IMG/VR virus record: IMGVR_UViG_3300020159_003155
Coordinates: 1-30,792 of that record
DNA length: 30,792 nucleotides
From: a virus
Strand: one strand, 5' to 3'
Position 1 is the stretch's first letter. Every line of letters begins with the position of its first letter. Below, piece after piece: positions 447 to 19,500 of the stretch. Made by a program: the position numbers and the translations under genes. The notes under the pieces are model-generated. The model was not told the DNA's origin and ran no database searches. It saw only the letters and a list, made by a program, of their open reading frames with translations.

Positions 447-455
447 GAGCTAAAA

Positions 456-632
456 ATGTTAATTGAATCCGGAGATTCTCAAAAAAGATTAATTCAAGAG
501 GTTATGCATGACTATGCACCAAAGCATAATCTTAAAAAACAAACTGAATTACATGAAAAAATTAGAAATGATGAAGATTATGATGATTGGTCCTATGGAA
601 CTGAACCAGTCTATGGATCTCCATGGAAATGA
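456..632 (+). CDS. 58-residue acidic protein of unknown function
   Basis: This small gene fills the space between speD and the late promoter of gp25. It has a strong Shine-Dalgarno (AGGAG at 445-449, 6 nt before the ATG) and ends in TGA. The product starts MLIESGDSQKRLIQEV and has a Lys/Asn-rich middle followed by the acidic aromatic tail NDEDYDDWSYGTEPVYGSPW. There is no signal peptide, membrane segment or recognisable fold. Support comes from the ribosome binding site, tight packing and protein-like codon use. Its binding site overlaps the hairpin at 426-446, so translation may be controlled. I do not recognise the family. Confidence 0.7.
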   Translation: MLIESGDSQKRLIQEVMHDYAPKHNLKKQTELHEKIRNDEDYDDWSYGTEPVYGSPWK

Positions 633-633
633 G

Positions 634-641
634 CATAAATA
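634..641 (+). promoter_or_regulatory. late promoter for the gp25-gp6-giant unit
   Basis: CATAAATA matches 7 of 8 bases of the T4 late box TATAAATA and fully matches the looser NATAAATA. It begins just after the stop of the 58-residue gene and ends 21 nt before the gp25 ATG, a spacing almost identical to those at 14917 and 24113. In T4 such boxes are read by host RNA polymerase carrying gp55 and gp33 with the gp45 clamp. Transcription would start a few bases downstream, giving a very short leader. Confidence 0.65.
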
Positions 642-662
642 ATTTAAGAAATTTTATGTCCG

Positions 663-1064
663 ATGGCAATCACTAGGATATCTAGATCGTTTAAAGATAT
701 TAGTTTATCCTTTGAGCCACATCCTGTGACTAAGGATTTACCAATTCTTAAAAATCAAAGTGCAATTATACGATCTGTTCGAAATATAGTTGAAACAATT
801 CCAACTGAAAGATTTTTTAATCCTACAATTGGCTCAAATGTTCGTTCTAGTTTATTTGAATTTGTAGATTTTGGTACTGCTTCAGTTATTAGAGATCAAA
901 TTCTTGTCGCAGTTTCAAATTACGAACCAAGAGTTACAAATGTAAATGTTGAAGTAAATCCCCAACCAGATATTAATAATTTTGAAGTTACTATTGATTT
1001 TGATATCATAGGGCAAGAAATTCCAACACAACAGTTTTCATTCATATTAGAGGCAACAGGATAA
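663..1064 (+). CDS. 25: baseplate wedge subunit gp25 (GPW/gp25 family)
   Basis: This 133-residue protein is close in size to T4 gp25 (132). gp25 joins gp6 and gp53 in the inner baseplate wedge, and its family is shared by contractile tails and type VI secretion (TssE). The sequence shows the family pattern: a helical N-terminal half with NQSAIIRSVRNIVET, the segment ERFFNPTIGSNVRSSLFE, and the EPRV turn (NYEPRVTNVNVEV) followed by beta strands ending in FSFILEATG. It is the first gene after the late promoter at 634. An out-of-frame ATG at 656 stops after six codons, so 663 is the sensible start. gp6 follows after 1 nt, which implies coupled translation of two wedge partners. Confidence 0.93.
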   Translation: MAITRISRSFKDISLSFEPHPVTKDLPILKNQSAIIRSVRNIVETIPTERFFNPTIGSNVRSSLFEFVDFGTASVIRDQILVAVSNYEPRVTNVNVEVNPQPDINNFEVTIDFDIIGQEIPTQQFSFILEATG

Positions 1065-1065
1065 A

Positions 1066-2991
1066 ATGCCTTTTACAAAGTTTGCTAATTTAGATTTTGA
1101 TCAAATCAAGACCTCCATCAAAGACTATCTCCGTGCGAATTCTAATTTTACGGATTTTGACTTTGAGGGGTCTAATTTTTCAGTATTAATTGATACTTTA
1201 GCGTATAATACCTATATTACTGCGTTCAACTCCAATATGGTTGTAAATGAATCCTTTCTGGATTCTGCAACATTAAGAGAAAACGTAGTCTCTCTTGCAA
1301 GAAATATTGGTTACGTTCCACGCTCCAGAAGCGCCTCAAAGGCAGTTGTTTCTTTTAACGTATCAACTACAGTAGATACTCCAACACTCACGTTACAGGC
1401 AGGATTAGCGTGTGTTGGGGCATCAGATGGGACTTCATATGTTTTCTCGGTTCCATCAGACGTTACTAGAAATGTAGTTAATGGCGTCGCTAGTTTTAGT
1501 GAGATTGAAATTAGTGAAGGAACGTTTCTCAAAAAACAATTTACAGTAGATGGATCGCTGGATCAAAAATTTATTTTAAACAACTCATATATCGATACTG
1601 CTACAATTGTTGCGTATGTAAAATCACCAAGTGATACTGGACTAGGAAGAAAGTATTCACTTATAGAAAATATTTTTAAAATTGATTCTACATCAGAAAC
1701 TTATTTACTTCAAGAAATTAAAGATGAAAAATATGAGATTTTCTTTGGAGATGGATATTTTGGTAAGAAGTTAGAAAATAATTCTGTTATTACAGTCACA
1801 TATATTGTTACTGATGGTAAGGATGGTAATGGTGCAGATGTATTTTCCTTTGCAGGAACTTTTAAGGATGCAAGTAATAATACAATTATTCCAACAAATA
1901 CCATTACAGTAACTACAAATCAAAAATCCCAAAATGGAGATGAAATTGAAGGAATAGATTCAATTAAATATTTTGCTCCAAGACTTTATTCTTCTCAATA
2001 TAGAGCAGTTACCGCAAAAGACTACGAAGCAATTCTCAAAGATAAAATATATCCAGATACTGAATCCGTATCTGTAGTTGGTGGAGAAGAATTGAATCCC
2101 CCACAATATGGAAAAGTTGTAATTAGCATCAAACCAAAGAACGGAACTTATGTTTCCGACTTTAATAAGATACAGATTCAAAATAAATTAAAGCAATATA
2201 CTGTTGCTGGAATCAATCCAGAAATAATTGATTTAAAAATTTTATATGTTGAGATTGATTCTTCGATTTACTATAATAATTCTGCTGTTGGTAGCGTAGA
2301 AAATTTAAAAACAAAGGTACAAAATTCTCTCATATCATATTCAAAATCTCCTAATCTCGGATCTTTTGGCGGAAGATTTAAATATAGTAAAGTTCTTCAG
2401 GTTATTGACAATACTGATAATGCAATTACTTCCAATATTACGAAAGTAAGAATTAGAAGAGATATGAAGGCAAATATTAATAGACCAACACAATATGAAA
2501 TTTGTTATGGAAATCAATTCCACATAAATCCTGCAGGTAAAAATATCAAGTCTACTGGATTTAAAATTGCCGGACAAACTGATACTGTTTATTTTACAGA
2601 TGTTCCAAATTCTGATTTGAAGACTGGGATAATTTCTATAGTAAAAGAATCTCCAATTACAGTTTCTGTTGGATCCACACAAGAATTAAAAACCACAATC
2701 ATAGTTCAATCTGCTGGAACAGTAAATTATGAAACTGGCGAAATTATGATTGGATCTTTAAATATCACATCCACATCTTTAGATGCTGATATTATTGAAA
2801 TTCAAGCTTTTCCAGAATCAAATGACATAATTGGATTGAAGGATCTTTATATTTCATTTGACGTTTCAAAAAGTTCAATAAATATGATTAAGGATGTTAT
2901 CGCATCAGGTGATGATATATCTGGATCGGTATTTTCAACAAAAGACTACTATAGATCAAGCTATTCGAACGGGGAACTAACGAGGTCGTAA
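1066..2991 (+). CDS. 6: baseplate wedge subunit gp6 (baseplate J-like)
   Basis: At 641 residues this matches the length of T4 gp6 (660). gp6 dimers form the inner ring that holds the wedges of the contractile-tail baseplate and controls the hexagon-to-star change. The N-terminus MPFTKFANLDFDQIKTSIKD, with FEGSNFSVLIDTLAYNTY after it, is typical of phage gp6. The baseplate-J signature lies at residues ~300-328 (APRLYSSQYRAVTAKDYEAI) and is followed by the ELNPPQYGKVVISIKP segment. The C-terminal third is beta-rich and ends in a conserved-looking YYRSSYSNGELTRS tail. It begins 1 nt after gp25 and ends 1 nt before the giant gene, so all three wedge genes should be on one transcript. Confidence 0.93.
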   Translation: MPFTKFANLDFDQIKTSIKDYLRANSNFTDFDFEGSNFSVLIDTLAYNTYITAFNSNMVVNESFLDSATLRENVVSLARNIGYVPRSRSASKAVVSFNVSTTVDTPTLTLQAGLACVGASDGTSYVFSVPSDVTRNVVNGVASFSEIEISEGTFLKKQFTVDGSLDQKFILNNSYIDTATIVAYVKSPSDTGLGRKYSLIENIFKIDSTSETYLLQEIKDEKYEIFFGDGYFGKKLENNSVITVTYIVTDGKDGNGADVFSFAGTFKDASNNTIIPTNTITVTTNQKSQNGDEIEGIDSIKYFAPRLYSSQYRAVTAKDYEAILKDKIYPDTESVSVVGGEELNPPQYGKVVISIKPKNGTYVSDFNKIQIQNKLKQYTVAGINPEIIDLKILYVEIDSSIYYNNSAVGSVENLKTKVQNSLISYSKSPNLGSFGGRFKYSKVLQVIDNTDNAITSNITKVRIRRDMKANINRPTQYEICYGNQFHINPAGKNIKSTGFKIAGQTDTVYFTDVPNSDLKTGIISIVKESPITVSVGSTQELKTTIIVQSAGTVNYETGEIMIGSLNITSTSLDADIIEIQAFPESNDIIGLKDLYISFDVSKSSINMIKDVIASGDDISGSVFSTKDYYRSSYSNGELTRS

Positions 2992-2992
2992 T

Positions 2993-5900
2993 ATGATACA
3001 AACTGGTTTTGAATCAAGGATAAAGGTACAGCAAATAATTGAAAATCAATTACCAGGATTTATCCTAGATGAAAGTCCAAAGGCTTCAGAATTTTTAAAG
3101 CAATATTATATTTCTCAGGAATATCAAGGTGGTCCTGTAGATATTGCTGAGAATTTGGACCAGTATTTGAATCTTGACAATTTAATTCCAGAAGTTATTG
3201 TAGGTAAAGTTAACCTTAGTACTAATATTACATCTACTGTTGGAGTCATTACAGTAACAAGTACTAAAGGTTTTCCAGAATCATATGGTTTGTTAAAGAT
3301 TGGCGACGAAGTTATCACATATACTGGTATTACAACAAATACGTTTACTGGTTGTATTCGCGGATTTAGTGGAATTACCAGTTATCATCAAGATTTAAAT
3401 ACTGAAGAATTGGTTTTTTCCGAAACTTCATCTGCTTCTCATTCTAGCAATTCAACTGTAATTAATTTAAGCTCTCAGTTTTTACAGGAATTTTATAAAA
3501 AATTAAAATATACCCTCACTCCAGGTCTAGAAGATAGGGATTTTGTTTCTGATTTACATGTAGGAAACTTCACAAAAGAATCAAAAACTCTATATCAAAC
3601 CAAAGGTACTGACGAATCATTCAGAATTTTATTTAATATTTTGTATGGGGAGACTCCAAAGGTAGTTGATTTGGAGCAATTCTTAATTAAACCATCTTCT
3701 GCAAAATTTATTCAAAGAGAGGTGATGGTTGCAGAAAGAATTTCTGGAGATCCATCCCTATTAGTTGGACAAACAATTAAAAAATCTACAGATGAAAATA
3801 CTAGTGCATCTGTATCAGAAGTTGAAATTATAAAAAGAGGTGGAAAAAATTATTATAAATTGTTAATTTTTGTTGGATATGATGATGCATCTCCTACAAT
3901 TACTGGGACATTTAATATTACTGGATCGACAAGACTTATAAGAGATGTAGGACCCAATGCACAAATTATTACAGTAGACTCAACAATTGGTTTCGGACAA
4001 ACTGGAACAATATATCTTGGTGATAATATTGCACAGTACACCAGTAAAAGTATAAATCAATTTTTTGGATGTACTGGTATTGGAACAACTGTATCAAAAA
4101 CAAATGTTGTTCGTTCGGATGAGACATATTATGGATATGAAAATGGTGATACATCCAAAAAGGTAGAATTGAGATTAACGGGGGTATTATCAAATTTTTC
4201 TTCCATTCTACAATCAGGACCAATTCAAGAAAACGAGCAGATAGGAATTAAACATCTTGGCGATGTGGTTACAAATCCAACATCAAATCCATCAGACAAA
4301 CAAATTTTTGCAAATAGTTGGATTTATAACACCAGTTCAAGATATGAAATATTAAATTTTGGATCTGGATCAATATCACAAATAACTTTAAGTGGTGATA
4401 TTGATAAATCTAGCCTAAAGATTGGGGATAAAATTGATATTTTAGAAAGAAATACTGAAATTCTAATTGCTAGTGAATTAGATGTTACAGAAATAACTGA
4501 CAAGCAAGTAACGACATCGGGAAGTTTTACCTTAAATCAAAATAAAGATTATGATATTAGAAGAATACTTGAAACATCTTCCACATCCTCCACTACATCA
4601 TCTTTAGAATTCAATTCTTTATTTGCAGATATTCAAAATGTTTATTTTGATAGAAGAACTGATTATGCATATGTTGCATCCAATTCTTTACCTTCATATG
4701 AAATAACAAAAAATACCTTTGGATATATTGCATCATCCGTTTCAGATGTAGATACTCAAACCAATTTATATTCAACTATAAATTTTGCAGAAAAAGTTTC
4801 ATTCCTAACAGGTTCGGAAATTTATTATCGTCCAGAATATTCCCCAATTCCTGGATTAGCGGAAGGAATTTATTATGTTGAAGTATTGGGAGATAAAAAA
4901 CAAATTAGATTATATAATTCCAAATCATTCATTGGTTCTGGAGATTATATTCAATTTGATAATTTAACATCCGGAGAGCACTTATTCATTTTAAATAGTC
5001 AAAATACCAATACAATTTCATCCCAAAAAGTTTTAAGAAAATTTCCAATTAATAGAAATATTGCTGATGGTAAATCGGATTTAACAGTTTCTGGTTCTGT
5101 TGGAATGTTAATTAATGGTGTTGAATTGACAAGTTATAAATCAAATGAAAAAATTTATTATGGACCATTAAAATCTGTTAATGTATTGAATGGTGGAGGA
5201 AATTATGATGTAATCAATCCCCCACTATTAGAAGTATCTTCTGGAATAGCATCCATCCAACCAATAGTTAATGGAACTATCGAAAGAATATTTGTTGACC
5301 CTCAGGAGTTTAACTTAGATACATTAGTGTCAATTGGTGTAAGTGGTGGTAATGGTAAAGGTGCATCATTTCAACCAGTTATAGAAATTCAAAGAAGAGA
5401 AATAAAATTTGACGCTAAAGAGATTGGTAATGGCGGTGGAGTTGATATATCTGCAGAAACAATTACATTCCAATCTCCTCACAATCTGGTCAATGGGCAA
5501 ATAATTTATTACAATCCAGAAAATAATATTCCATTGGGAGTTGGGACTTATAATTCAAATAACACCGATCAAGGAAGAGCATTAAAAACACAAACAATAT
5601 ATTACACAAAGTATATTAATTCTACTACTATTCAACTTTATGAAAAGATAACTGATTATAATTCTGGAATTAATACTGTTGGATTTACAACGGTAGGAAC
5701 TTCTGGTATTCATAAGTTTGAAACTGAACCTAAAAAAGTTTTAACAGATATTAAAATTTTAAATGGTGGCGTAGGATATGAGAATAGAAAATTGAGAGTT
5801 AATCCTACAGGAATTTCGACAATCAATAATGCTATTAATTTTGAGAATCATGGATTTAATCATGGAGAATTGGTAACTTATACTTATGAAACTTCAGCAA

Positions 5901-8900
5901 TAAGTGGATTGTCTTCGGATAAACAATATTATATTTTGGGTATTAATAATAATTCATTTAGATTGTGTGATGCCGGAATTGGTGGAACTGATATAACAAA
6001 TTATCAGAGAGAAAAATATGTGAACTTTTCCAGTACAGGTTCTGGATATCAAATTTTCAATTATCCAGAAATTGTTGCTACAGTAAGTTATACGACCTCT
6101 GGGATAGGTAGTACTTCTATTAGAGGGGAAATTAATGCATATCCGATTGTTAAAGGTTCGATAGTTGGAGCATATGTTTATAGTAGTGGTAGTGATTATG
6201 GATCTACAATTATAAATTTACATAAAAAACCAATAATAACAATTAAGACAGGAAAAACTGCTCAACTGGTTCCAATTGTTATTGATGGTAGAATTACTGA
6301 TGTAAATATTCAATATGGTGGAATTGAATACTATTCAACCCCAACCTTAAGTGTTAATGGAACTGGGAGTGGGTGTATTTTAAGACCAGTTGTTGTAGAT
6401 AATGTGATAACAGATGTTGTTATTATAACTTCTGGATCTGGATATGACTCAAATACAACAATAACTGTAGAACCATCTGGAAATGGTGCATTATTTGATC
6501 CACAAGTTAGATCTTTAGAAATAAACACCAATGTTTTTTATGGAATTGAAGATAGTGTTAGTGGGATTAGAAAGGAATCCAATGAATTGCTAATCAACTC
6601 TAAAAATAATTTACAATATTCCATTTCTGGATATTTTGGAAGTTTACAAAATAAATTTGGTGATAATGGGATAAATCATTCTCCAATTATTGGGTGGGCT
6701 TATGATGGAAATCCAATATATGGTTCTTATGGATATTCAAATCCAAAAGACAAAAATTCAACAATTAAACAACTTGTTTCTGGATATACTTCAAATATTT
6801 CAAATATTGAAAATAGACCTTCAGGATTTAATGTTGGATTTTTTGTAGAAGACTATAAATTCACATCTTCTGGAGATCTGGATTCTTATAATGGAAGATA
6901 CTGCATAACTCCAGAATTTCCAAATGGAACATATGCATATTTTGCAACATCATCTTTAGATATTTTTGGAAATACAGTAGGACAATTTCCATATTTTATT
7001 GGTAATTACTATAGATCGAAGTTTATATCTGAAAATGCATATTTAGATCAGTCATTTGATTTTAATAGTTCAAAATTAATTAGAAATACTTTTCCATATA
7101 AAGTTAATGATGAGTATGGTGGAAATGATTTTATTATCGAATCTAATGAGATTATTAATCAAAAAACTTCTGTAGAATCCGTAACTTCTGGAAGTATATC
7201 AAATTTGGATATTATTGGTGGAGGTTCTGGTTATAAAGTTGGAGACAATTTAACTTTCAACGAAATAGCGACAGGTGGAGGTGGATTAATTGCTCAAGTT
7301 TCTAAAGTAAAAGGAAAAGATATTGTTAATCTGCAAACAAATATAACGTCATACCAAGATGCCATTTTTACTTGGAAAAATGGAAATCAAATTGAAGTTA
7401 CAATACCACCACAACATTCCATAGAAAATTTAGACACCGTAACAATTTCGGGATTTTCAACATCATTAAGTGATTTAAACAATTCATTCCAAGTTAATAT
7501 AGAACCCTATACGTCGATATTAATTAAAGATGTTCCTGCATATTCGTTAGCGGGAGTTGTGACTGATATATACGTTTCAACAATACCAGAAAATATTTCT
7601 ATTGGTAGTAGCATTATAATTGAGGCAGAAACTTTATCCGTATTAAATGTCTTTAATGATTTGAATATTATTAGGGCATCTAGAGAATCTACGGGATTGG
7701 CACATACTGCAACAACTACAATCAGTTTTGTTCCAGATTCATTCACATTCAATCATAAAACTGATTATTTTGATTCAAAAGTAAATGATAAAATTTACTT
7801 TAACCCAAAACAATCTGTTGGTGTTGGAACTACCCCAGGAATAGGGGTTTCTGCAACTTATACAGTTGGTTCAAAAAATTATCAAATTTCAGTGCCAACA
7901 CAATCTATTTTTATACCAAATCACCCATTTAAAACAAATCAAGAAGTAATATTCGGAAATATTGGTGCAGCATCATCGGTTATTGTTTCATATACACAAT
8001 CTGGTGGAGCATATAATCTTCCAATAAGTGGAAATGAGCAAAAAGTTTATATCATTAAAAAATCAAAAGATTATATTGGAATTGTAACTCAGGTTGGATT
8101 AACAACTACTTCCGATGGAGTATTTTTCCTCAATAATGGATCTGATTATTACAAATATTCGTTATCATCAAATTATACTCAAGTAACTGGTAATGTTGAT
8201 AAAATTAAAACATCAGTTTCAATATCAACTTCACATGAACTTTCTGATGGCGATAATATTAGTTTAAATATTAAATCAAATCTTTCAGTAGGTATTGGAA
8301 CATCTACTTCAATTTATGTCAAATATGATTCTTTAAGAGAAAGATTGTTAATTAATCCTATAGATTTCATTTCATCGGGAATTAATACATCATCAAATAC
8401 TATTACTATTAATTCTCACAATTTAAATACCGGAGATAAAGTACTATATTCATCTAGTGGATCAGTTGCCGCAGGATTATCGACAGGATTTTATTTTGTT
8501 TATAAAGTAGATAATAATAGAATAAAATTGTGTGAAACTTATATTGATTCAACAGATACTCCACCAAATGTTGTGGATATTACTGGTGTTGGGGCAACAA
8601 ATCAAAAAATTTCCCCAGTTAATCCAAAACTTAACATCGTAAAAAATAATAATTTAGTTTTCAATCTTTCTGATACTTCACTATATGGATACAATTTTAA
8701 ATTATACTATGATAAAGATTTTGCCGATGAATTTATATCTACTGGATCAACAAGTGTCCTATCCACATCTGGAGTTGGAACAGTTGGAATATCAACTAAT
8801 GCATCATTAACATTAAATTATAGTGCAGAATTACCCACTAAATTATACTATTCTATAGAAAAATCTGGATATATTAGTACAGCAGATACTGAGGTTACAA

Positions 8901-11900
8901 ATTATTCTGAAATTAATTTCATCAATAGTCAGTATAGTGGAGATTACACCATTTCTGGTGTAGGAACAACTACATTCAATATTGTACTTAATAGCATTCC
9001 TGAAAAATTATCATATAATCAATCAGAATGTGATAGTTTAGAGTATTATACAAATTCTACGACTGCTTCTGGTGAAATTAAAAATATCAGAATAATTTCT
9101 GGTGGAAATGAATTTAAAAATCTACCAATATTTACTGGAAGCGACTCCGTAAATGGGGAAGGCGCATATATTGTTTGCAAATCTGATTCTGTTGGAAAAA
9201 TTAATCAGACAAAAATTTTAAATGAAGGATTTGAATATCCTTCCGATAAAACTCTCAATCCAGAAGCAAATATTCCATTAACTGCAACATTAGTATCTTC
9301 AAATACTATTTCAAATATTGCCGTATTGGATGGAGGTAAAAATTATACATATGCTCCAGATTTAATTATTATTGATTCAAATACAGGAGAAAAAATTGAT
9401 TCTGGATTTTTATCTCCAAAATTGGTTGGAAATGGGATTGTTTCCGTAGATATTGTTAATGATCCAAAAGGTCTTCCATCACAAACAGTAACAATTAAAA
9501 GTATTAATAATACAAATGGAGTTGGTATACAATCAATAACATCTTCAACATCTGGAGTAGCAACTTGTACGTTAGTTACACCACTTTCCGGATTTAATAT
9601 TGAACCATTTAGTGTTGGTGATAAGATTTATGTTGAAGGAATCCAACAATATGGATCAGATGGAGATGGTTTTAACTCGGAAAACTATGGATATGAATTT
9701 TTTACAGTAACTAATTATTCAAATGCTGGAACATTTGAGTCAAGGCAACTTACATTTAGTGTTGCAGGATTTACTACAAATGCTGGAATTGCTAAAACAA
9801 TACAAAATTCTTATGGATCTATTGTAAATTACAACAGTTATCCAAAATTTGAAGTAACTCAAAAACTCTCAACATTTATTATTGGAGAGTATCTAACAGT
9901 ATTAATTTCTGGACAATTTGAAGTGACTGATTTGAGAGTTGTTCAATATAACGAAACAAATATTAAGGTAGAAGGAAATTATATCCTATCACAATCCGAT
10001 ATAATCAGAGGTATTCAATCTGGAAGTATTGGAACTATAGATTCAATATTAACAAATTACGGCGAATTTGAAATTAGTTATAGTTCTAAACAAAAAATGG
10101 GTTGGTCAGATAATATTGGAACTTTGGATGATGATTTTCAAGTTATTTCGGATAATGATTACTATCAAAATTTATCATATTCATTAAAGAGTTCTCAAAC
10201 TTGGGAGAATATTATTAGTCCTGTTAATAACATTTTACACCCAAGTGGACTTAAGAATTTTGCAGATACTGAAGTCATTTCTAATGTTGGATTTGGTTCT
10301 ACTACACCCAGCGAATATACTACAGTACTTTATGATATTATTAATGAAAATAGAGTTGATACTATCAATAATTTTGATTTTGTTTTAGATATTGATTTAT
10401 CAACGGAAAATTCGGCAAAATCTATAAAATTTAAAAATAAAAGATTATCAGATTATATCCAATGTCGCACTAATAGAGTTCTTCAAGTAGATGATATTAG
10501 TTCATTATTTTCAAGTTCTGAACTTAGTTCTACAACATATGCTTCAAATATTTTTAACATATTGCCTTCCAAAAAATATAATAGATTTTTAGTTCAAGTT
10601 TCTAACACGTCCAATACTCAAGTTCAATTTACAGAAATTGTAACTATTAATGACGATCAAAATATTTTTACTTTAGAAAAAGGCAATTTATTTAATAATA
10701 ATAATACAAAAATAGGAGATATTTATGGATATGTTGATGAATATGAAAATTATTATTTAAAATTTGATCCCTTAGATGTATACAATACTGATTATAACAT
10801 TAAAGTATTATCTAATACATTTAATAACTATCAAACTGGTATCGGTACATATTCTGTTGGTTTTGTAAATCTTGTAAGTTCAAACTCTATTGTTGCAGCA
10901 GGAAGTACTGCTACGATTATTTCTGCTCCGGTTGGAAATTTGCAATCTATATTTGCCAATATTCATATTCTTGATGATATTGGCAATCAAATGAATTATG
11001 TTGAATTATTTGTCGATCATGACGGAACAGACACAAATATAAGTGAATATTATTTTGATTCTAACAGTGAATTTAGTGGAAACTTTATTGGTTCTTTTGG
11101 AGCATCAATTTCAAATAATATTATATCTTTAAATTACACAAATACAACCAACAATCAAATTACTTTAAGAAGTAAAAATGTTGGATTTGGATCAACTTCT
11201 ATTGGAATATCTACTTACAGATTCCAGGCAATAGGACAACCAGATGGATATGAAAGAACTGTAAACTACAACTCAAATTATAGCAAAGTATCTGCGGCAT
11301 CAACCATTGTATCATTAAATAAATCCAATTTTACTTCATTGAAATCGACAATAAAAGTAAGTATTGGAGCAACTAGTTCTTTACATCAAATAATGATGTT
11401 GCATGACGGCACAGATGTTTATACGTCACAATATCCATTTTTATCGATTGGAAGTACAAGTGGTATAGGAACTTTTGGTGGAGAATATAATGGAAGTTAT
11501 ATAAATCTTAAATTCTATCCAGACTCAGGAATAACGGGAACTTTTACAATTTTATCCTTTAATGAAAGTTTTTATACAGAAATAGATACTCAAAATATTC
11601 CACAAAATTTAACATATTCGAATATTACTGAATCTGTAAATAGTATTCAATATATTTCAATCAATAGTTCAAATAAAAATAAACTAGATTTTGATTTAAA
11701 ATATCAAAACTATCCAATTTTTGAAAAAACATTTAATCCAGCAAATACTGATATTTTAAATTATTCTACTGGTGAATTTAATATACCAAATCATTTCTTT
11801 AGTACGGGTGAGGAATTAATTTATACTCCAAGTTCTAGCTTTGTTGGACTTAGTGGAACATCAGTTGGTATAGGAACGACGTTAAATTCTGCTGGAATTT

Positions 11901-14900
11901 CTACAAGTATATTACCAAATAGAGTCTTTGCAATTAAAATTAACAATGATAGATTTAAATTATCTACAAGAAAAGATTATGCTCAGGCAGGGATTTATGT
12001 TACATTTACTTCGGTAGGTGTCGGCAATTATCACAAACTTGAAATGGTTAAAAAGAATGAGAAGTCAATTATTACTATTAGCAATATCATTCAACATCCA
12101 ATTGCATATTCATTAGTAACATATAATCTTGCTAATGGTGGGCAAATTGGGACTGCATCTACCACATTTGCTTTAACTGGAATTAGTTCAATTAAAACTA
12201 ATAATTTACTCAAAATTGATAATGAATATATGAAAGTTCTTAGCGTTGGATTTGGAACTACCTCTTCTGGTCCAATTTCATTTGCTGGAACATTCCCTCT
12301 GGTTCAGGTTCAAAGAGCATTTGTTGGGTCTTCTGCAGCATCACACAATATTGGAACAAGTGTAAACGTTTATACTGGTTCTTTTAATATTTCTGGTAGT
12401 AAAATTTACTTTACTGAAGCACCTAGAGGTAAATTATTTGATGATACATTTGATAATTTGCCTTCTCCAAAATCACCGTTTACTGGTAGAGTATTTTTAA
12501 AGAATGATTATAATTCAAATCAAGTTTATGATGATATATCTACCAAATTTACTGGAATTGGTCAAACTTACACATTAACAACACAAGGAATTAACACAGC
12601 AGGTCTTACCAATATTGGTGGGAATGGTATTGTAGTAATTAATGGAATATTCCAAACACCGACAACACAGAATAATACAAATAACAATTATCTTATTTTA
12701 GAAAATACAAACTCAGGAATTAGTAGTGTAGTATTTTCGGGAATTACATCAAGTAATGGATCAGTTGTTATTTCTGATTATGATATCAATAAAAATCAAC
12801 TTCCTAGAGGCGGAATAATTGTTTCTCTTGGTTCTACACCTGGACTGGGATTTGCACCTCTTGTAGGCGCTTCTGCGACTGCTACAGTTTCTGCAGGTTC
12901 TATCATTTCTGTTGGTATTGGAACTACTGGTAACTATGGATCTGGATATAGAAATCCAGTTTCAATTGCAGTAACTGATAGTAATCATACAGGAACGGCA
13001 GCAACGATTACAGCAATTGTTGGGGCTGGGGGAACATTGTCATTTACTGTTGTTGGTGGAGGAACCGGATATGTAAACCCAACGATTAATATCTCTTCAC
13101 CAAGTTATGAAAATCTACCGGTAACTGGTGTTTCTAGACCTGGAATTGGGTCTACAACTTCTACTGGAGTTGGATTATTGATTAATGTTGAAGTTGGTGC
13201 AAGTTCAACAGTTGGAGTAGGATCAACTTTATTTGAAGTAACGTCATTTAAGATTACTAGACCTGGATATGCATTTAAAGTAGGTGATGTGATTAAACCA
13301 GTTGGTTTAGTTACTGCAAAAGGGTTATCATCACCAACAAATGAGTTTACTTTAACTGTTCTTGATACATTTACCGATTCATTCTCTGCATGGCAATTTG
13401 GAGAACTTGATTATATTGATTCCATAGCATCACTTCAAGACGGTTCCAGGAGAAGATTTCCATTATATTATAATAATCAACTATTAAGTTTTGAATTAGA
13501 TCCTACAAATTCCGACTCACAATCAATTGATTTTGATTCTTTACTTGTTATTTTTATTAATGGCATTTTGCAAGAACCAAAATATGCATATCAATTTACC
13601 GGAGGAACTTCATTTATATTTACTGTTCCACCAAAGGTAGAGGATAAAATTGCAATTTTCTTTTATAGAGGCAGTTCATCAGATAGCTATTCGCCAGATG
13701 TATACGAAACTCTTAAAGTGGGAGATGAATTGCAAATTTTCAATAATAATCAATTATTGGGGATTACTACAACACAAAATCCAAGAACAATATCCAATAT
13801 AAAAACTTCAGATACTGTAGATACAAATACCTACACTTTTCAAGGTATAGATATTACCAATTATAAACCAACTAGTTGGATAAAACAAAAAGTTGATAAA
13901 ATAGTTGATGGTACAATTGTTTCCAAATCTAGAGATTCTATTGAACCCCAAATATATCCAACCACAAAAATAATTAAAGATTTTTCCACAACTGATATTA
14001 ATTTGTTTGTAGATAATGCCCAATTCTTCAATTATGAGAATGAAATTTCAATTGATTTTGATGCCTTTATTGTAAGTGGATCTGTAGATCCAGTTTCTGC
14101 TGCTGTTACTGCTATAGTTTCCGCAGCAGGAACGATTCAATCATTATCAATTACTAATGGTGGAAGTGGATATAGTGGACCATCAGTTACTGTTAAAATT
14201 TCTTCACCATTAACTATAGGAATTTCAACCCAACTACCAATGGGAGTTGGTATTGGTATTGGAACTACTGCAACAGCAACCATTACTGTTTCTGCAGCAG
14301 GAACTTTAACAACTCCAATTACAATAACAAATCCAGGACTTGGATATAGTATTGGGATTAATCCACAAGTTATCGTACCACTTCCAGATCCAACATATGA
14401 AAATATTTCCCATGTGTCAAATATAGAAGGATTTTCTGGATCTATTATTGGTATTGGAACAACCGTTGGTATTGGAACGGCGTTAGCAATTAAGTTTACA
14501 TTAGATACATCACTTGCGCCATTTACAGGTTTATCTGTAGGGTATCCTATTTACATTTTTGATACCAAAGTTGGTAATGGTGTAACTTCAGTCTATACAT
14601 CCGATACTGCAAAAGTTGGTGTTGGAACTACTTTCTTAGACAATATTTACAATATTAGTGCATTTAATTCATCTGTTGGAATTATTACATGTAATGTCCA
14701 ATCAACTTCTTCTCTTGTTGGAATTGCGACAACGGGATCCACTATTGGCAAATTTTCATGGGGAAGATTATCTGGATTTACCAGGTCTTCCTATCCAATT
14801 TCAATAGCAGTTTCTTCTTATATGACTGATGCTGGATTATCAACTTTTCCAACAATTCAAAGAAGAGGTTATGGTCTGCGAAATAATGGTGGATTAAAAA

Positions 14901-14911
14901 AGAATCTATAA
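2993..14911 (+). CDS. giant baseplate/tail protein in gene 7 position (gp7-like N-terminus)
   Basis: This uninterrupted 3,972-codon gene takes about 39% of the window. Its place between gp6 and gp8 is that of T4 gene 7 (1,032 aa). Residues ~200-265 (TKGTDESFRILFNILYGE, then LVGQTI about 40 residues on) resemble, from memory, a region near T4 gp7 residues 700-770, so the N-terminus is probably gp7-like. The rest is modular and beta-rich: IGDEVITYTG-type modules (~85 and ~330); an H-x-L-x-x-G-x-x-V repeat (six or more copies from ~595 to ~3018); GGxGY repeats (about 14); a YHYH-like domain (~1226-1340); a conserved-looking DNDYYQNLSYSLKSS block (~2380); three tandem HDGT-type domains (~2530-2860); NG-x-x-Q modules (~3220 and ~3520); and a basic tail PTIQRRGYGLRNNGGLKK. 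There is no signal peptide or membrane segment, and cysteines are few. It is probably a wedge core carrying long adhesive or fibre-like extensions. Confidence 0.85.
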   Translation: MIQTGFESRIKVQQIIENQLPGFILDESPKASEFLKQYYISQEYQGGPVDIAENLDQYLNLDNLIPEVIVGKVNLSTNITSTVGVITVTSTKGFPESYGLLKIGDEVITYTGITTNTFTGCIRGFSGITSYHQDLNTEELVFSETSSASHSSNSTVINLSSQFLQEFYKKLKYTLTPGLEDRDFVSDLHVGNFTKESKTLYQTKGTDESFRILFNILYGETPKVVDLEQFLIKPSSAKFIQREVMVAERISGDPSLLVGQTIKKSTDENTSASVSEVEIIKRGGKNYYKLLIFVGYDDASPTITGTFNITGSTRLIRDVGPNAQIITVDSTIGFGQTGTIYLGDNIAQYTSKSINQFFGCTGIGTTVSKTNVVRSDETYYGYENGDTSKKVELRLTGVLSNFSSILQSGPIQENEQIGIKHLGDVVTNPTSNPSDKQIFANSWIYNTSSRYEILNFGSGSISQITLSGDIDKSSLKIGDKIDILERNTEILIASELDVTEITDKQVTTSGSFTLNQNKDYDIRRILETSSTSSTTSSLEFNSLFADIQNVYFDRRTDYAYVASNSLPSYEITKNTFGYIASSVSDVDTQTNLYSTINFAEKVSFLTGSEIYYRPEYSPIPGLAEGIYYVEVLGDKKQIRLYNSKSFIGSGDYIQFDNLTSGEHLFILNSQNTNTISSQKVLRKFPINRNIADGKSDLTVSGSVGMLINGVELTSYKSNEKIYYGPLKSVNVLNGGGNYDVINPPLLEVSSGIASIQPIVNGTIERIFVDPQEFNLDTLVSIGVSGGNGKGASFQPVIEIQRREIKFDAKEIGNGGGVDISAETITFQSPHNLVNGQIIYYNPENNIPLGVGTYNSNNTDQGRALKTQTIYYTKYINSTTIQLYEKITDYNSGINTVGFTTVGTSGIHKFETEPKKVLTDIKILNGGVGYENRKLRVNPTGISTINNAINFENHGFNHGELVTYTYETSAISGLSSDKQYYILGINNNSFRLCDAGIGGTDITNYQREKYVNFSSTGSGYQIFNYPEIVATVSYTTSGIGSTSIRGEINAYPIVKGSIVGAYVYSSGSDYGSTIINLHKKPIITIKTGKTAQLVPIVIDGRITDVNIQYGGIEYYSTPTLSVNGTGSGCILRPVVVDNVITDVVIITSGSGYDSNTTITVEPSGNGALFDPQVRSLEINTNVFYGIEDSVSGIRKESNELLINSKNNLQYSISGYFGSLQNKFGDNGINHSPIIGWAYDGNPIYGSYGYSNPKDKNSTIKQLVSGYTSNISNIENRPSGFNVGFFVEDYKFTSSGDLDSYNGRYCITPEFPNGTYAYFATSSLDIFGNTVGQFPYFIGNYYRSKFISENAYLDQSFDFNSSKLIRNTFPYKVNDEYGGNDFIIESNEIINQKTSVESVTSGSISNLDIIGGGSGYKVGDNLTFNEIATGGGGLIAQVSKVKGKDIVNLQTNITSYQDAIFTWKNGNQIEVTIPPQHSIENLDTVTISGFSTSLSDLNNSFQVNIEPYTSILIKDVPAYSLAGVVTDIYVSTIPENISIGSSIIIEAETLSVLNVFNDLNIIRASRESTGLAHTATTTISFVPDSFTFNHKTDYFDSKVNDKIYFNPKQSVGVGTTPGIGVSATYTVGSKNYQISVPTQSIFIPNHPFKTNQEVIFGNIGAASSVIVSYTQSGGAYNLPISGNEQKVYIIKKSKDYIGIVTQVGLTTTSDGVFFLNNGSDYYKYSLSSNYTQVTGNVDKIKTSVSISTSHELSDGDNISLNIKSNLSVGIGTSTSIYVKYDSLRERLLINPIDFISSGINTSSNTITINSHNLNTGDKVLYSSSGSVAAGLSTGFYFVYKVDNNRIKLCETYIDSTDTPPNVVDITGVGATNQKISPVNPKLNIVKNNNLVFNLSDTSLYGYNFKLYYDKDFADEFISTGSTSVLSTSGVGTVGISTNASLTLNYSAELPTKLYYSIEKSGYISTADTEVTNYSEINFINSQYSGDYTISGVGTTTFNIVLNSIPEKLSYNQSECDSLEYYTNSTTASGEIKNIRIISGGNEFKNLPIFTGSDSVNGEGAYIVCKSDSVGKINQTKILNEGFEYPSDKTLNPEANIPLTATLVSSNTISNIAVLDGGKNYTYAPDLIIIDSNTGEKIDSGFLSPKLVGNGIVSVDIVNDPKGLPSQTVTIKSINNTNGVGIQSITSSTSGVATCTLVTPLSGFNIEPFSVGDKIYVEGIQQYGSDGDGFNSENYGYEFFTVTNYSNAGTFESRQLTFSVAGFTTNAGIAKTIQNSYGSIVNYNSYPKFEVTQKLSTFIIGEYLTVLISGQFEVTDLRVVQYNETNIKVEGNYILSQSDIIRGIQSGSIGTIDSILTNYGEFEISYSSKQKMGWSDNIGTLDDDFQVISDNDYYQNLSYSLKSSQTWENIISPVNNILHPSGLKNFADTEVISNVGFGSTTPSEYTTVLYDIINENRVDTINNFDFVLDIDLSTENSAKSIKFKNKRLSDYIQCRTNRVLQVDDISSLFSSSELSSTTYASNIFNILPSKKYNRFLVQVSNTSNTQVQFTEIVTINDDQNIFTLEKGNLFNNNNTKIGDIYGYVDEYENYYLKFDPLDVYNTDYNIKVLSNTFNNYQTGIGTYSVGFVNLVSSNSIVAAGSTATIISAPVGNLQSIFANIHILDDIGNQMNYVELFVDHDGTDTNISEYYFDSNSEFSGNFIGSFGASISNNIISLNYTNTTNNQITLRSKNVGFGSTSIGISTYRFQAIGQPDGYERTVNYNSNYSKVSAASTIVSLNKSNFTSLKSTIKVSIGATSSLHQIMMLHDGTDVYTSQYPFLSIGSTSGIGTFGGEYNGSYINLKFYPDSGITGTFTILSFNESFYTEIDTQNIPQNLTYSNITESVNSIQYISINSSNKNKLDFDLKYQNYPIFEKTFNPANTDILNYSTGEFNIPNHFFSTGEELIYTPSSSFVGLSGTSVGIGTTLNSAGISTSILPNRVFAIKINNDRFKLSTRKDYAQAGIYVTFTSVGVGNYHKLEMVKKNEKSIITISNIIQHPIAYSLVTYNLANGGQIGTASTTFALTGISSIKTNNLLKIDNEYMKVLSVGFGTTSSGPISFAGTFPLVQVQRAFVGSSAASHNIGTSVNVYTGSFNISGSKIYFTEAPRGKLFDDTFDNLPSPKSPFTGRVFLKNDYNSNQVYDDISTKFTGIGQTYTLTTQGINTAGLTNIGGNGIVVINGIFQTPTTQNNTNNNYLILENTNSGISSVVFSGITSSNGSVVISDYDINKNQLPRGGIIVSLGSTPGLGFAPLVGASATATVSAGSIISVGIGTTGNYGSGYRNPVSIAVTDSNHTGTAATITAIVGAGGTLSFTVVGGGTGYVNPTINISSPSYENLPVTGVSRPGIGSTTSTGVGLLINVEVGASSTVGVGSTLFEVTSFKITRPGYAFKVGDVIKPVGLVTAKGLSSPTNEFTLTVLDTFTDSFSAWQFGELDYIDSIASLQDGSRRRFPLYYNNQLLSFELDPTNSDSQSIDFDSLLVIFINGILQEPKYAYQFTGGTSFIFTVPPKVEDKIAIFFYRGSSSDSYSPDVYETLKVGDELQIFNNNQLLGITTTQNPRTISNIKTSDTVDTNTYTFQGIDITNYKPTSWIKQKVDKIVDGTIVSKSRDSIEPQIYPTTKIIKDFSTTDINLFVDNAQFFNYENEISIDFDAFIVSGSVDPVSAAVTAIVSAAGTIQSLSITNGGSGYSGPSVTVKISSPLTIGISTQLPMGVGIGIGTTATATITVSAAGTLTTPITITNPGLGYSIGINPQVIVPLPDPTYENISHVSNIEGFSGSIIGIGTTVGIGTALAIKFTLDTSLAPFTGLSVGYPIYIFDTKVGNGVTSVYTSDTAKVGVGTTFLDNIYNISAFNSSVGIITCNVQSTSSLVGIATTGSTIGKFSWGRLSGFTRSSYPISIAVSSYMTDAGLSTFPTIQRRGYGLRNNGGLKKNL
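6664..7017 (+). other. YHYH-like domain inside the giant protein
   Basis: Residues ~1226-1340 contain the succession SPIIGWAYDGNPIYG, then LDSYNGRYCITPEFPNGTYAYF, then GQFPYFIGNYY. This order (DGxPIYG, LDxxNGR, PEFPNGTYxY, YPYxxG) is what I know from the YHYH family (PF14240), found in marine bacteria, phages and eukaryotes. The naming histidines are absent: the YHYH position reads YAYF. The fold is probably retained while any metal or ligand site made by those histidines would be lost. Confidence 0.6.
10579..11575 (+). repeat. three tandem copies of a ~80-95 residue domain in the giant protein
   Basis: Residues ~2530-2611, ~2640-2733 and ~2770-2860 align by eye. Each has a strand ending near a T/I-rich V-V motif, an (H)DGTD-type turn, a Y/F-rich segment (EYYFDS, QYPFLS), an IGSFG / IGTFGG / IGDIYG step, then an L-x-F/Y-x-P strand and a final I-x-x-L/R-S-x-x-x-F strand. 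Copy 1 is the most divergent: its turn is NDDQN. They look like beta-sandwich adhesion domains made by duplication, but no function is assigned. Confidence 0.5.
12900..14385 (+). repeat. GGxGY beta-repeat cluster near the giant's C-terminus
   Basis: Repeat units include GNYGSGYRNPVSIAV, GGGTGYVNPTINI, GGSGYSGPSVTV and NPGLGYSIGINPQV, separated by Ala/Thr/Gly-rich strands such as VSAAGTIQSLSITN. At DNA level the 13-mer TTGGTATTGGAAC occurs exactly at 12912 and 14253, and twice more just beyond at 14448 and 14466. The same protein repeat is found in gp8, the DUF4815 protein and gp14 of this window. Confidence 0.7.
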
Positions 14912-14943: not shown

Positions 14944-16509
14944 ATGTCTGCACTTGTAACAGATCAATTTAGAATATTAAATGCAAAGAATTTTATAGAC
15001 TCTGTTCAGGATTCTTCAAACTCATATTATGTTTTTGTTGGATTATCAAACCCAACATCTACCGTAGGATTTGGTCGTTCATCAACATGGGACACTACAC
15101 CACCAGATCCCTCTGATAGTGTTGACTATGCTAATCATTATGAATCAACTCTTCTTTTTGGTAAAAAAATTACAAGTGCAAATATTAGAAGAGTAGTTAG
15201 GCGAGTTGATTGGGCAAGAGGAACAAAATATGAAATGTATAGGCAAGATTATAATGCCAATACTCCATCACCAATAACTGGATCGATGAGATTATATGAT
15301 GCAAATTATTATGTAATGAATTCCGATTATAGAGTTTATATCTGTATCGATAATGGTTCTTCAGGGATCAATACAACAGGAAATGCATCACAAGATGAAC
15401 CAACTTTTACAGATTTAGAACCATCAAAAGCTGGTGAAAGTGGTGATGGATATTTGTGGAAATATTTGTATTCTGTTTCTCCAAGTGACATTATTAAATT
15501 TGATTCTATCGAATATATTACTATACCAAATGATTGGGAAACTTCCACAGATGCACAGATTACTGCTGTTAGGCAAAATGGAAATTGTACTTTAAATGAT
15601 AATCAAATAAAAAAAGTTTATATTAAAAATCGCGGATCTGGATACTCATTAGCAACTGGTCAATCTTGTAAGATTCTTGGAGATGGATCTGGTGCAAATG
15701 TTGTAGTTGATGTTGATAGTTCTGGAAGAATTACCAATACTACAGTAACATCTGGTGGAAAAAACTACACATATGGAATTGTTGATTTGGGAACTACATC
15801 AACAAATACTCCAACAACTTATGCAGAATTAATTTCGATTATTCCACCATCTAAAGGTCATGGTTTTGATATATATAAAGAATTGGGTGCCGATAAAGTT
15901 TTAATTTATGCCAGATTTGATGACTCGACAAAAGATTTTCCAATAGACTCAAAATTTGCCCAGGTTGGTATTATTAAAAATCCAACAATATATGATTCAA
16001 CGGGAATTAGTACCACTGTATATTCTCAGAATCAGTTTTCTGGTACTTATGCTATGAAATTGAGCGGAACTCCATCTGGAACAATTTCTGTTGGTGACAA
16101 AATTCAACAATCAGTTGATGGTGGAACCGCTTTAGGATATGTTTCATCATATGATAGTGAGACAAAGGTTCTAAAGTATTATCAAGATAGATCATTATAT
16201 TTTAATCCAACATCTTACGGGAATATTGATTATATTGGAATTTCAACTGTAGGAAAAGTCCTTCAATTTAATTCATCCAATCAAGTGACAAAAGTTAATG
16301 GTGGATTTAGTGCTAATATTGATAATTTTACTGGAATTACTACTACAATTTCAAATAAAATTATTAATTTGGGAGTTCAATTTACAAATGGTCTTTCAAA
16401 TCCTGAGATAAATAAAAAGTCGGGAGAAATAATTTATATCGACAACAGACCTACTGTAACAAGGAACTCTAGACAAAAAGAAGACGTTAAAATTATCCTG
16501 GAATTTTAA
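14944..16509 (+). CDS. 8: baseplate wedge subunit gp8, with internal repeat insertion
   Basis: gp8 is a dimeric baseplate wedge protein that binds gp7 and gp10 in T4. T4 gp8 has 334 residues and this protein has 521. The ends are recognisable: the N-terminus TDQFRILNAKNFIDS with VFVGLSNP, the PPDPSDSV motif, the RRVDWARGTKYEMY block, GESGDGYLWKYLYSVSP near residue 164 and EYITIPNDW. At the C-terminus, SGEIIYIDNRPTVTRNSRQ followed by EDVKIILEF parallels T4 SGEMIYMENRPP...EINILFTF. Most of the extra length lies between residues ~215 and ~490 and includes two GGxGY-type repeats (NRGSGYSLATGQSC, SGGKNYTYGIVDL). The start has a late promoter 19 nt upstream, and the next gene begins 3 nt after the stop. 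Confidence 0.92.
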   Translation: MSALVTDQFRILNAKNFIDSVQDSSNSYYVFVGLSNPTSTVGFGRSSTWDTTPPDPSDSVDYANHYESTLLFGKKITSANIRRVVRRVDWARGTKYEMYRQDYNANTPSPITGSMRLYDANYYVMNSDYRVYICIDNGSSGINTTGNASQDEPTFTDLEPSKAGESGDGYLWKYLYSVSPSDIIKFDSIEYITIPNDWETSTDAQITAVRQNGNCTLNDNQIKKVYIKNRGSGYSLATGQSCKILGDGSGANVVVDVDSSGRITNTTVTSGGKNYTYGIVDLGTTSTNTPTTYAELISIIPPSKGHGFDIYKELGADKVLIYARFDDSTKDFPIDSKFAQVGIIKNPTIYDSTGISTTVYSQNQFSGTYAMKLSGTPSGTISVGDKIQQSVDGGTALGYVSSYDSETKVLKYYQDRSLYFNPTSYGNIDYIGISTVGKVLQFNSSNQVTKVNGGFSANIDNFTGITTTISNKIINLGVQFTNGLSNPEINKKSGEIIYIDNRPTVTRNSRQKEDVKIILEF

Positions 16510-16512
16510 GAA

Positions 16513-19500
16513 ATGGCCCAAAAAACAAATCTCAATGTAAGCCCATATTATGATGATTTTAATGAATCAAATGCTGGGGCTAGAGATAAAAACTACTATA
16601 AAGTTCTCTTCAATCCAGGAAGACCTGTACAAGCTAGAGAATTAAATACTTTACAGTCGATTTTACAAAATCAAGTAGAATCTTTTGGAAGTCATTTCTT
16701 TAAAGAGGGATCTTTAGTAATTCCGGGAAATGTTGCATTTGACAACCAATTTTATGCAGTAAAATTAAATCCAACTGCATTTGGAGTTGATATTGCAACA
16801 TATATTCAAAATTTTGTTGGCAAAAAAATTACAGGACAATCTTCTGGAATTACTGCAACAATTCAGAAAATTATTCTTCCAGACTCTGAAATTGAATATG
16901 TAACTCTTTATGTAAAATATTTGGATTCTGATAATGATTTTACTTTTAATCAATTTAGAGATAATGAAGAGTTATCTGCTAATGAAAATGTTACCTATGG
17001 AAATACTACAATTAATTCCGGAACAACATTTGCATCCACAATTTCCAAAAATGCATCTGCTACTGGATCTTCAGCTTCTATTGGAGAAGGAGTTTATTTT
17101 ATAAGAGGAAATTTTGCGCGAGTATCCAAACAAACTATTGTTTTAGATTACTATACAAATACCCCATCATATAGAATTGGATTAAAGGTAGTAGAAAAAA
17201 TCATCACATCTAAAGATGATTCAAACCTATATGATAATGCAAAAGGTTTTACTAACTATGCTGCTCCTGGAGCGGATAGATTTCAAATTGAACTAATTTT
17301 AACAAAAAAACTTTTAACAGATATTAATAATGATACAGATTTTGTTGAAATATTAAGAGTTAAAAACGGCACAATTCAAAAAATTACAACAAAATCAAAT
17401 TATAATATTATTAAAGATTATCTTGCACAAAGAACATATGATGAATCTGGAGATTATTCTATTGACCCATTTGAAATATCATTAAACAATTCCCTTAATA
17501 ATAGAATTGGAAATGATGGATTATTTTTTGATAATGAAACTACAGATCAGGGAAATAAACCATCGGATGATTTGATGAGCGTCAAATTATCTCCAGGTAA
17601 AGCATATGTTAGAGGATATGATATTGAAAAAACTGGTGTTGAAATTTTAGATGTAAATAAACCAAGAACAAAACAGACAGTAGAAAATATTAATATTCCC
17701 TTTGAAATGGGAAATTTAATTAGAGTTAATAATGTTTCAGGTTCTGTAAAGCAAAAATTAACAGTAGAATTATATAATGGAAGAAAAATTTCAACTATAG
17801 CACCAAATGGTTTAAAAATTGGAGATGCTAGGGTATATGCAATTAATTTAACCGACGCTGCATATTCCAATACAGCAACAAATTGGGATCTATATTGTTT
17901 TGACGTTCAAACTTACACAGAATTAACATTAAATCAACCATTATCATCATCGCAACTTTTATCAACATCAATAATTAAAGGAAAAAGTAGCGGAGCTAGT
18001 GGATATGCAACTGCTGCAGGATCTGGAAGTGCTACAATTAATGTTAGACAGACATCAGGAACATTTGCCGTAGGTGAATTAATATCAATAAATGGTGTGG
18101 AATTATATCCAAGAGCAATTAAATCTATAAAAGTATACAGTACAGAAGATATTAAATCAATTTATCAATCAACATCTACTTCCGGATTTACAACAGCATT
18201 TTTAGCAGATACTCAATTAGATAAAGTAATTGCACCTGGATTTAGTGCATTAGATTCAATTACAATTGAAACAAGCGGTGCAGTAAGTGGGGCTGGAAAG
18301 GCATTTACTGGGATTAAAACGGACACAATTATTAGATATCAAAGACCTGGACTTTCTACAGAAACTTATAATAGAGTTATTTCAATTTCTCCAGATGGGT
18401 CTTCAATGACACTTTCTGCATTAACATCTTCAGTAACTGGCGTTTGTGATAAAGATTTACCAGGATCTTCGTTAAAAACACTTTTTTCTTTAGGTATTCC
18501 AAAAATTAGAAATGAAGAAAGGGGATATCTATATGCTAAATTGCCAGACTCAAATGTAGCATCTACAAATTTAGCAAATTCAAACTTAGTATTTACTGCC
18601 CAATCAAATTCAACATTTACTCCATCTTCAAATACATTAACTGTAAATAGAAGTAATTTTACCTTAGGAGTAACTACTACATCAGTAAATTTTGAGTCAT
18701 TTGATGAGGAAAGATATTCTATTTTTTATACTGACGGCACTATTGAAAACTTAACTTCAGATAAATTTACTTTATCATCAAATCAAGTTACATTTTCTGA
18801 TATACAAAATAAACAAATTAGTTTAATTAATGCTACATTTATTAAAAATGGAATTCAAAGTAAATCCAAGTTGTATAATCGTAGTCAAACTATTTCTGTT
18901 AATCTATCAAAATATTCCCAATCAGGTACAGGAATTAATACATCAATTAATGATGGATTAACATACAATCAATATTATGGTTTGAGAGTTCAAGATGAAG
19001 AAATTTGTTTGAGATATTCGGATGTTGTAAAAGTTTTAGCAGTTTATGAATCATTAAGTACATCTGCACCTTCATTAGATACACTCAATTTTAATGTAAT
19101 TTCTAATGTCGATTCAAATGCAATTATTGGTGAAAATATAATTGGAAGTACTAGTAAAGCAGTTGCTAGAGTTGTATCTAAACCATCTTCAGGTTCAATA
19201 GGAATTGTTTATTTGAATAACAATAGATTTGTAGCAGGTGAAAATGTATCATTTAATGAATCCAATATTTCCACATCAATCAATTCAATAACTCTTGGTG
19301 TATATAAAAATATAACAAGTAAATTTACTTTAGACAAAGGGCAAAAAGAGCAGTACTACGATTATTCCAAGATAGTTAGAATAAATGGTGAGCAAGAACC
19401 CACAAAACAATTATTGATTGTATTTGATTATTATTCCGTACCCAATAGTGATACTGGAGATGTATTTACTGTAAATAGTTATTCTGAAGAAAGATTTGTT

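Follow-up and report, generated by a model that had tools for sequence, protein, structure and literature searches.

The baseplate wedge protein gp7 of phage T4 is 1,032 amino acids (aa) long (PDB 5iv5, 5hx2), and the same collinear core is carried by the small gp7s of phages X1 (498 aa), HTVC008M (1,016 aa) and Melnitz-3 (896 aa), whose genes lie after gp6. According to the available sections of PMC10457771, gp17 of phage XM1 (242 aa) is an orthologue of T4 gp7 by electron cryomicroscopy; it joins two copies of gp16 in the core bundle, and holds the tail spikes by a loop of its domain I (residues 80-106) and by its C-terminal tail (residues 201-242). In AlgoCIS, the gp7-like part of Alg12 binds fibres and is called an evolutionary hotspot in the accessible portion of PMC8894135. 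Much larger proteins, the giants of family PHROG 2885, are found in cyanophages S-SRM01 (3,895 aa), P-HM1 (4,446 aa) and P-SSM2 (5,195 aa). Here we describe a giant gp7 encoded by IMG/VR virus record IMGVR_UViG_3300020159_003155, a virus contig analysed over the whole record, positions 1-30,792 (hereafter, the window). The protein is almost certainly the baseplate wedge gp7. As judged from its sequence, the gp7 core is very probably split, with the TKG motif and a beta domain (aa ~184-401) far upstream of an HPxG segment (aa ~2351-2448), and the order of the two kept in one chain. The gene and the parts of its core are:

2993-14911, plus strand: giant gp7, 3,972 aa, predicted mass 430.5 kDa, matched by PHROG 2885 at 3,727 bits
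2993-3172 (aa 1-60), plus strand: N-terminal helical segment, collinear with the small-gp7 N-terminus; predicted helices at aa 12-19, 22-27 and 31-43, mostly with low predicted local distance difference test score (pLDDT)
3542-4195 (aa 184-401), plus strand: N-terminal half of the gp7 core (N-core), from VIA-align 2 to T4 chain 5iv5_BJ, hhalign and PHROG 26741 (E 3.4e-10)
3599-3652 (aa 203-220), plus strand: motif TKGTDESFRILFNILYGE, with a counterpart in T4 gp7
10043-10336 (aa 2351-2448), plus strand: putative C-terminal half of the gp7 core (C-core), from PHROG 26741, motif and hidden Markov model (HMM), with LHPSGL at aa 2415-2420

The open reading frame (ORF) opens with ATG and contains no internal stops. 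Its identity as gp7 was already known, in that the deposited records of relatives carry the label, and giant gp7s form an established family. PHROG 2885 ("baseplate wedge subunit", 4,179 positions) matches most of the protein, with the best stretch running from aa 2 to 3321 against profile positions 2-3343. By DNA, the nearest phage record is that of Synechococcus phage S-SRM01, which covers 22% of the query. Its gene at the equivalent place is annotated "baseplate wedge initiator", and aa 1-400 of the two proteins are 63.7% identical. Like the window protein, the cyanophage giants sit between gp6 and gp8 and have the N-core followed by the C-core; lengths and module numbers differ among them. 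The window's virus is a T4-like cyanophage whose nearest named relative belongs to Kyanoviridae.

Comparison with T4-like gp7 required profiles, because single-sequence matching was weak: tblastn gave E 0.4 or worse to T4-like phage gp7 among the best 60 of 693 records, and a PDB sequence search with aa 1-502 returned nothing at E 10. When the N-termini of five cyanophage giants were compared by hhalign with eight T4-type gp7s, a single comparison gave a probability of 92% and E 5.9e-7, pairing window residues 190-310 with T4 residues 723-822, LVGQTI included. This bears out the preliminary description of the locus, which had proposed a gp7-like domain from the letters of the DNA; the T4 motif that it cited, KGIEASYKFLFKVLYNEE, was also correct, the motif beginning at residue 738 of T4 gp7 (NC_000866), and LVGQTI, said to follow about 40 residues later, is at aa 257-262 of the window protein, 36 residues past the end of its motif. 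We also built a profile from 12 small gp7s (9 T4-type, X1, HTVC008M and Melnitz-3) and no giants. Its N-core HMM scored all eight named giants, window included, at 16.3-37.8 bits, compared with a best score of 3.5 among 800 shuffled, 8 reversed and 3 neighbouring proteins, so the N-core resemblance is beyond chance. The same HMM matched 160 of 160 giant-type metagenomic ORFs among the best relatives listed (two lists). Residues 730-758 of T4 gp7 match the giant family PHROG 2885 (E 1.3e-4), and X1 gp7 links both families, matching PHROG 964, the T4 gp7 family, at E 3.1e-7 and PHROG 2885 at E 5.6e-32.

The predicted fold of the N-terminal region points the same way. An AlphaFold2 model of aa 1-480 (99 sequences, pLDDT 70.8, predicted template modelling score (pTM) 0.38) begins with helices and includes a small beta module, the TKG helix (207-218) and a beta domain. 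Among 350,542 PDB chains searched by Foldseek, only two matched the model at E 0.001: gp7 of Klebsiella phage KP1, at the top of the ranking (E 1.6e-4), and then T4 gp7 (E 9.3e-4); another T4 gp7 entry came fifth (E 0.029). By VIA-align 2, for which best Z values of 7 to 8 are commonplace, T4 gp7 chain 5iv5_BJ aligned at Z 9.0 over 121 residues (22% identical, window 184-401 to T4 716-845), KP1 gp7 at Z 8.5 over 81 residues (2.3 Å, window 237-400 to 763-844), and T4 gp7 chain 5hx2_A at Z 8.2 over 79 residues (2.5 Å). The profile and the local fold match together place window aa ~184-401 on T4 gp7 716-845. The 79-81 residues aligned by gp7 chains are spread across a model span of ~160, about half of which is skipped, and on the model the skipped half would be the second copy of a small beta module, module A, nested in the T4-like beta domain.

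The second gp7 signature common to small gp7s lies around "HPVGF" (T4 ~838-917, "VHPVGF") and would correspond to window aa ~2351-2448. PHROG 26741, the family of X1 gp7, which was built by others, matches the window protein in two places, aa 195-387 (E 3.4e-10, profile 86-275) and aa 2364-2448 (E 5.0e-8, profile 371-448). When this profile was run over 12 phage genomes at E 0.01, both core halves were found in order in one ORF in all eight complete giant-bearing genomes and in none of 14 controls, and the S-SRM01 C-core was matched at E 1.2e-5. Profile positions ~2-61 also match the segment of the type of aa 1-60 in seven of these eight genomes; on the window segment itself, no PHROG 26741 match was reported at E 1. 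A C-core model made from small gp7s only scored five of the eight named giants at 23.8-40.6 bits, above all controls (best 8.1) and far downstream of the N-core, at positions 1790 in ACG-2014e, 3446 in S-RIM4, 2601 in P-HM1, 2415 in Sf-FS3 and 2466 in P-SSM2. Scores were also good in the homologue S-PM2d081 (3,048 aa, annotated as hypothetical; 39.9 bits) and in S-SZBM1_208 (36.4 bits), and both proteins contain the two core halves. S-SZBM1_208 (6,619 aa) is present in the virion, with 71 peptides and 13.5% coverage, according to the part of PMC9146016 open to us. In the open-licence PMC literature, as far as its text was available, we found no description of a split gp7 core or of giant cyanophage gp7.

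Several observations weigh against these assignments. The model of aa 1-480 is moderate and superposes on gp7 only locally (Foldseek template modelling score 0.10-0.12), the 121-residue alignment to 5iv5_BJ has a root-mean-square deviation of 11.9 Å, and three chains that are not gp7 tie with gp7 by Z (8jov_1 at 9.4, 9n71_A at 9.3 and 8vjh_A at 8.6, against 8.2-9.0), although they match mainly module A stretches, elsewhere on the model. PHROG 964 matches just four of the eight giant-bearing genomes at E 0.01, with one of 14 control genomes also positive; all four matches fall within the giant ORF. The window run of PHROG 26741 at E 1 likewise has one of 14 control genomes positive, and in T4 this family reports only the N-terminal part (profile 24-116) and not the C-core. 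With the C-core model of small gp7s, the window (7.8 bits) and Sf-CH8 (7.2) fail to clear the controls, and S-SRM01, at 1.5 bits, is under several of them. In the window, the C-core assignment relies on PHROG 26741, together with relatives that act as bridges and the conservation of order. A broader C-core model found the segment in all 80 metagenomic giant ORFs that extend more than 2,150 aa beyond the N-region, but the window and five other giants were among the sequences that went into it; a model without giants found it in 60 of the 80. Finally, AlphaFold2 performed poorly on aa 2300-2520 (pLDDT 65, pTM 0.30), and no significant fold match was found for this C-core model, the best in Foldseek being a gp7 chain, 9f4a_A0, at a chance-level E of 4.0. 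VIA-align 2 placed the model on 9f4a_A0 at Z 4.0 over residues 786-851, outside the HPxG segment, and this was discarded as evidence. The first core half is backed by sequence and by predicted fold, while the split itself is argued from sequence, with fold support lacking.

The size of the insert is graded from small to giant gp7s. Between the core HMM matches there are 41 residues in T4, 224 in X1, 359 in Melnitz-3 and 491 in HTVC008M, and then 1,547 in ACG-2014e, 1,594 in S-PM2, 2,122 in the window, 2,320 in P-HM1, 2,698 in S-RIM4 and 2,765 in S-SZBM1. For the window, the 2,122 residues are the gap between HMM matches, and the figure of ~1,950 used here covers what lies beyond the fold match (aa 402-2350). 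The tail past the C-core is 48 residues in X1, 115 in T4, 1,525 in the window and 3,037 in S-SZBM1; in X1, HTVC008M and Melnitz-3, insert and tail span 224-491 and 48-205 residues. On these alignments, ~1,950 residues of the window protein lie within the gp7 core and ~1,525 more after it, so that the added mass would be more than one C-terminal extension. The ~3,600 added residues of the preliminary description, taken there as such an extension, are in part just that, the ~1,525 that follow the core, and in larger part an insertion inside it. The same description had the N-terminal ~600 residues of T4 gp7 lost or shortened. No counterpart of T4 residues 1-640 was in fact found: across 12 window ORFs and nine giants, every score of a T4-type profile stayed below 0 bits, and survival of this part elsewhere in the window was rejected on the same 12 ORFs. 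Loss does not follow: X1 gp7, at 498 aa, is shorter than this region and is also without it, so we treated T4 1-640 as non-defining for gp7, and the T4 lineage may instead have acquired it. T4 residues 917-1032 score at most 1.9 bits in nine giant gp7s. Separately, another ~500 aa are inserted ahead of the N-core in gp7 of S-RIM4 and of S-SZBM1, so that the N-region match falls into two pieces, 5-106 and 617-960 in S-RIM4 (gene at 15138-33218) and 3-111 and 625-964 in S-SZBM1 (gene at 21249-41108). In Aeromonas phage CC2, the gp7 match spans two ORFs (253 and 895 aa, at 8-3510), with the core in the second.

Iterated profiles recognised two copies of module A, five of module B and eight of a GGSGY-type module C in the window protein, and the three profiles had no match at E 0.01 in eight shuffled giants. 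The added parts are:

3227-3442 (aa 79-150), plus strand: small beta module A, first copy (iterated HMM, E 4.8e-27)
3959-4129 (aa 323-379), plus strand: module A, second copy, nested in the T4-like beta domain (E 6.8e-16)
4196-10042 (aa 402-2350), plus strand: inserted stretch between the putative core halves, with four module B and six module C copies by module scan
6671-6973 (aa 1227-1327), plus strand: YHYH domain within the insertion (PF14240, E 9e-26, 91.5 bits against a cutoff of 25)
10337-14908 (aa 2449-3972), plus strand: C-terminal extension, with one B and two C modules

Taken as a whole, the explanation that we consider likely is a wedge gp7 with a split core whose added modules are at the baseplate periphery. 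By analogy with T4 gp7 and XM1 gp17, the two core pieces would fold together and join two copies of gp6 as the core of the wedge. The window gp7 is enlarged inside its core and at its C-terminus, and XM1 gp17 holds spikes at two such places; compared by role, the two proteins may be structurally equivalent here, with insertion and tail projecting from the same two kinds of place as the spike-holding loop and C-terminus. The Alg12 comparison is likewise by described role only, and unlike the window gp7, the gp7-like part of Alg12 shares one chain with a gp6-like part. The fused modules could then replace separate spike or peripheral proteins and form the periphery of the baseplate, where they would either touch the host themselves or bear other proteins that touch it, with contact passed to the gp6-gp7 core that fires the sheath. 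That the modules form an outer adhesive structure of the baseplate is plausible, and we give a host-contact role for the added parts an even chance. We suggest only tentatively that gp7 holds the outer baseplate within its own fold, its modules exiting by the loop between the core halves and by the tail, without separate proteins of the gp9-gp12 type; if this were true, contact with the host would be transmitted as a direct pull on the sheath-firing switch. Between gp8 and the gp13-like gene, the window has three ORFs that reach 80 aa (VrlC, 24143-24487 and 24487-24732); none has a PHROG match that names a gp9-gp12 function, and genes of this type could lie outside the window. For the ORF at 24143-24487, the matching family is labelled tail-fibre assembly, and the VrlC homologue of S-SZBM1 is labelled tail-fibre connector.

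The conservation of the added residues counts against host contact. Over aa 1-2500, window positions are almost never deleted in 15 metagenomic relatives and S-SRM01, the mean deletion rate never exceeding 0.05 per 50-residue block (insertions in the relatives are uncounted) and identity to the window of 0.53-0.91 per 50 residues. A hypervariable insertion was rejected on the same deletion rates, and deletion this rare is more like an ordered scaffold than variable receptor-binding tips. Across one set of metagenomic relatives, the distance from the N-region match to the C-core match varies from 1,816 to 1,962 aa, and aa 3301-3972 align to S-SRM01 with 15% gaps. A split-core gp7 whose ~3,500 added residues serve chiefly as an ordered scaffold bearing separate fibres, such as an outer ring of the baseplate, and not as host-binding modules, would account for the scarcity of deletions and for the repeated small beta modules, among which no receptor-binding domain is recognised apart from YHYH; the two-layered baseplate that PMC7029224, in the sections available, predicts for this group from VrlC also fits. 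The chemostat history of S-PM2d081 argues the other way. In the accessible text of PMC9910659, where phage and host were grown together in a chemostat, this gene had a non-synonymous change by day 39, which fits a role in adsorption, weak support given that 18 of 211 ORFs had changed by then. We rate the scaffold explanation at somewhat below even.

The remaining two explanations concern the core, and we prefer the split-core gp7 to both. An intact N-terminal gp7 domain followed by one long C-terminal extension, essentially as the preliminary description had it, would suit an N-core whose TKG and LVGQTI motifs are near the N-terminus and a C-core without fold support, but it is very improbable in view of the second core segment that PHROG 26741 finds ~1,950 residues downstream in the window, and of the same N-core/C-core order in all eight complete giant-bearing genomes and, by the broader model, in all 80 metagenomic ORFs that are long enough. 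That gp7 is absent from this phage group and apparently substituted by VrlC, as the available part of PMC7029224 states, with the giant an unrelated structural protein, might be suggested by the weak tblastn matches of T4 gp7 but is less credible still, since profiles, fold and gene order all identify the giant protein as gp7, and the N-core and C-core HMMs do not match VrlC at E 0.01.

A giant gp7 with both core halves argues against that absence statement. VrlC was also rejected as a gp7 itself, the wider N-region profile matching it only through one module A copy. Nor did a separate gp7 gene, which the preliminary description had regarded as fatal to its proposal, come to light: in the complete genomes of eight giant-bearing relatives (the window's own record is only 30,792 bases), the core positions of PHROG 26741 match at E 0.01 only the giant ORF. 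Profile positions 198-352 do match other genes, and this region is the GGSGY-type part, outside the cores.

The giant ORF is flanked by gp6 and gp8 in a block of wedge genes ordered gp25-gp6-gp7-gp8-VrlC, with 1 base between gp6 and gp7 and 32 bases between gp7 and gp8, and its placement between gp6 and gp8, noted in the preliminary description, agrees with the family matches of both neighbours:

663-1064, plus strand: gp25-like baseplate wedge subunit, 133 aa (PHROG 261 'baseplate wedge subunit', E 1.7e-51; the name gp25 is taken from relatives)
1066-2991, plus strand: gp6 baseplate wedge subunit, 641 aa (PHROG 219, E 6.8e-204; Pfam Gp6-like helical domain, E 3.6e-18)
14944-16509, plus strand: gp8 baseplate wedge subunit, 521 aa (PF09215, Phage-Gp8, E 4.2e-17; PHROG 438, E 7.6e-161)
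16513-23754, plus strand: VrlC-type protein, 2,413 aa (DUF4815, E 1.8e-58; the name VrlC is taken from relatives)

Giant gp7 genes occur in many T4-like phages of cyanobacteria under contradictory labels (gp7, structural protein, hypothetical, "head and packaging", or absent), and location of both core halves provides one test for gp7 in such genomes. The proposed split would also indicate where to cut the protein for structural work, at the ~1,950-residue insertion and the ~1,525-residue tail. Among the PHROG labels, the HTVC008M gp7 family, phrog_3465 (gene at 11509-14559), is called 'head closure Hc2', and the S-PM2d081 family, phrog_4406 (gene at 2531-11677), 'head and packaging'; GGSGY modules common to gp14 and gp7 may cause these clashes. 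In the window, module C also occurs in the gp14-like protein encoded at 25577-26980 (aa 212-287 and 300-364) and in gp8 (aa 199-251 and 246-276), and VrlC holds its module A copy at aa 2001-2065. S-SZBM1_205 (615 aa, at 16260-18107) is also labelled "baseplate wedge initiator"; neither core HMM matches it at E 0.1, and the wider N-region profile matches module A only.

The 30,792-base contig is likely a genome fragment. A gene resembling S-adenosylmethionine decarboxylase is present at 46-384, 5' of the wedge genes, in the same arrangement as in S-SRM01. At 28219-29901, after the small terminase gene, the window encodes a 560-aa protein (phrog_727) where AT skew is high (0.22), and downstream of it is a tail-fibre-like ORF that is cut by the window end.

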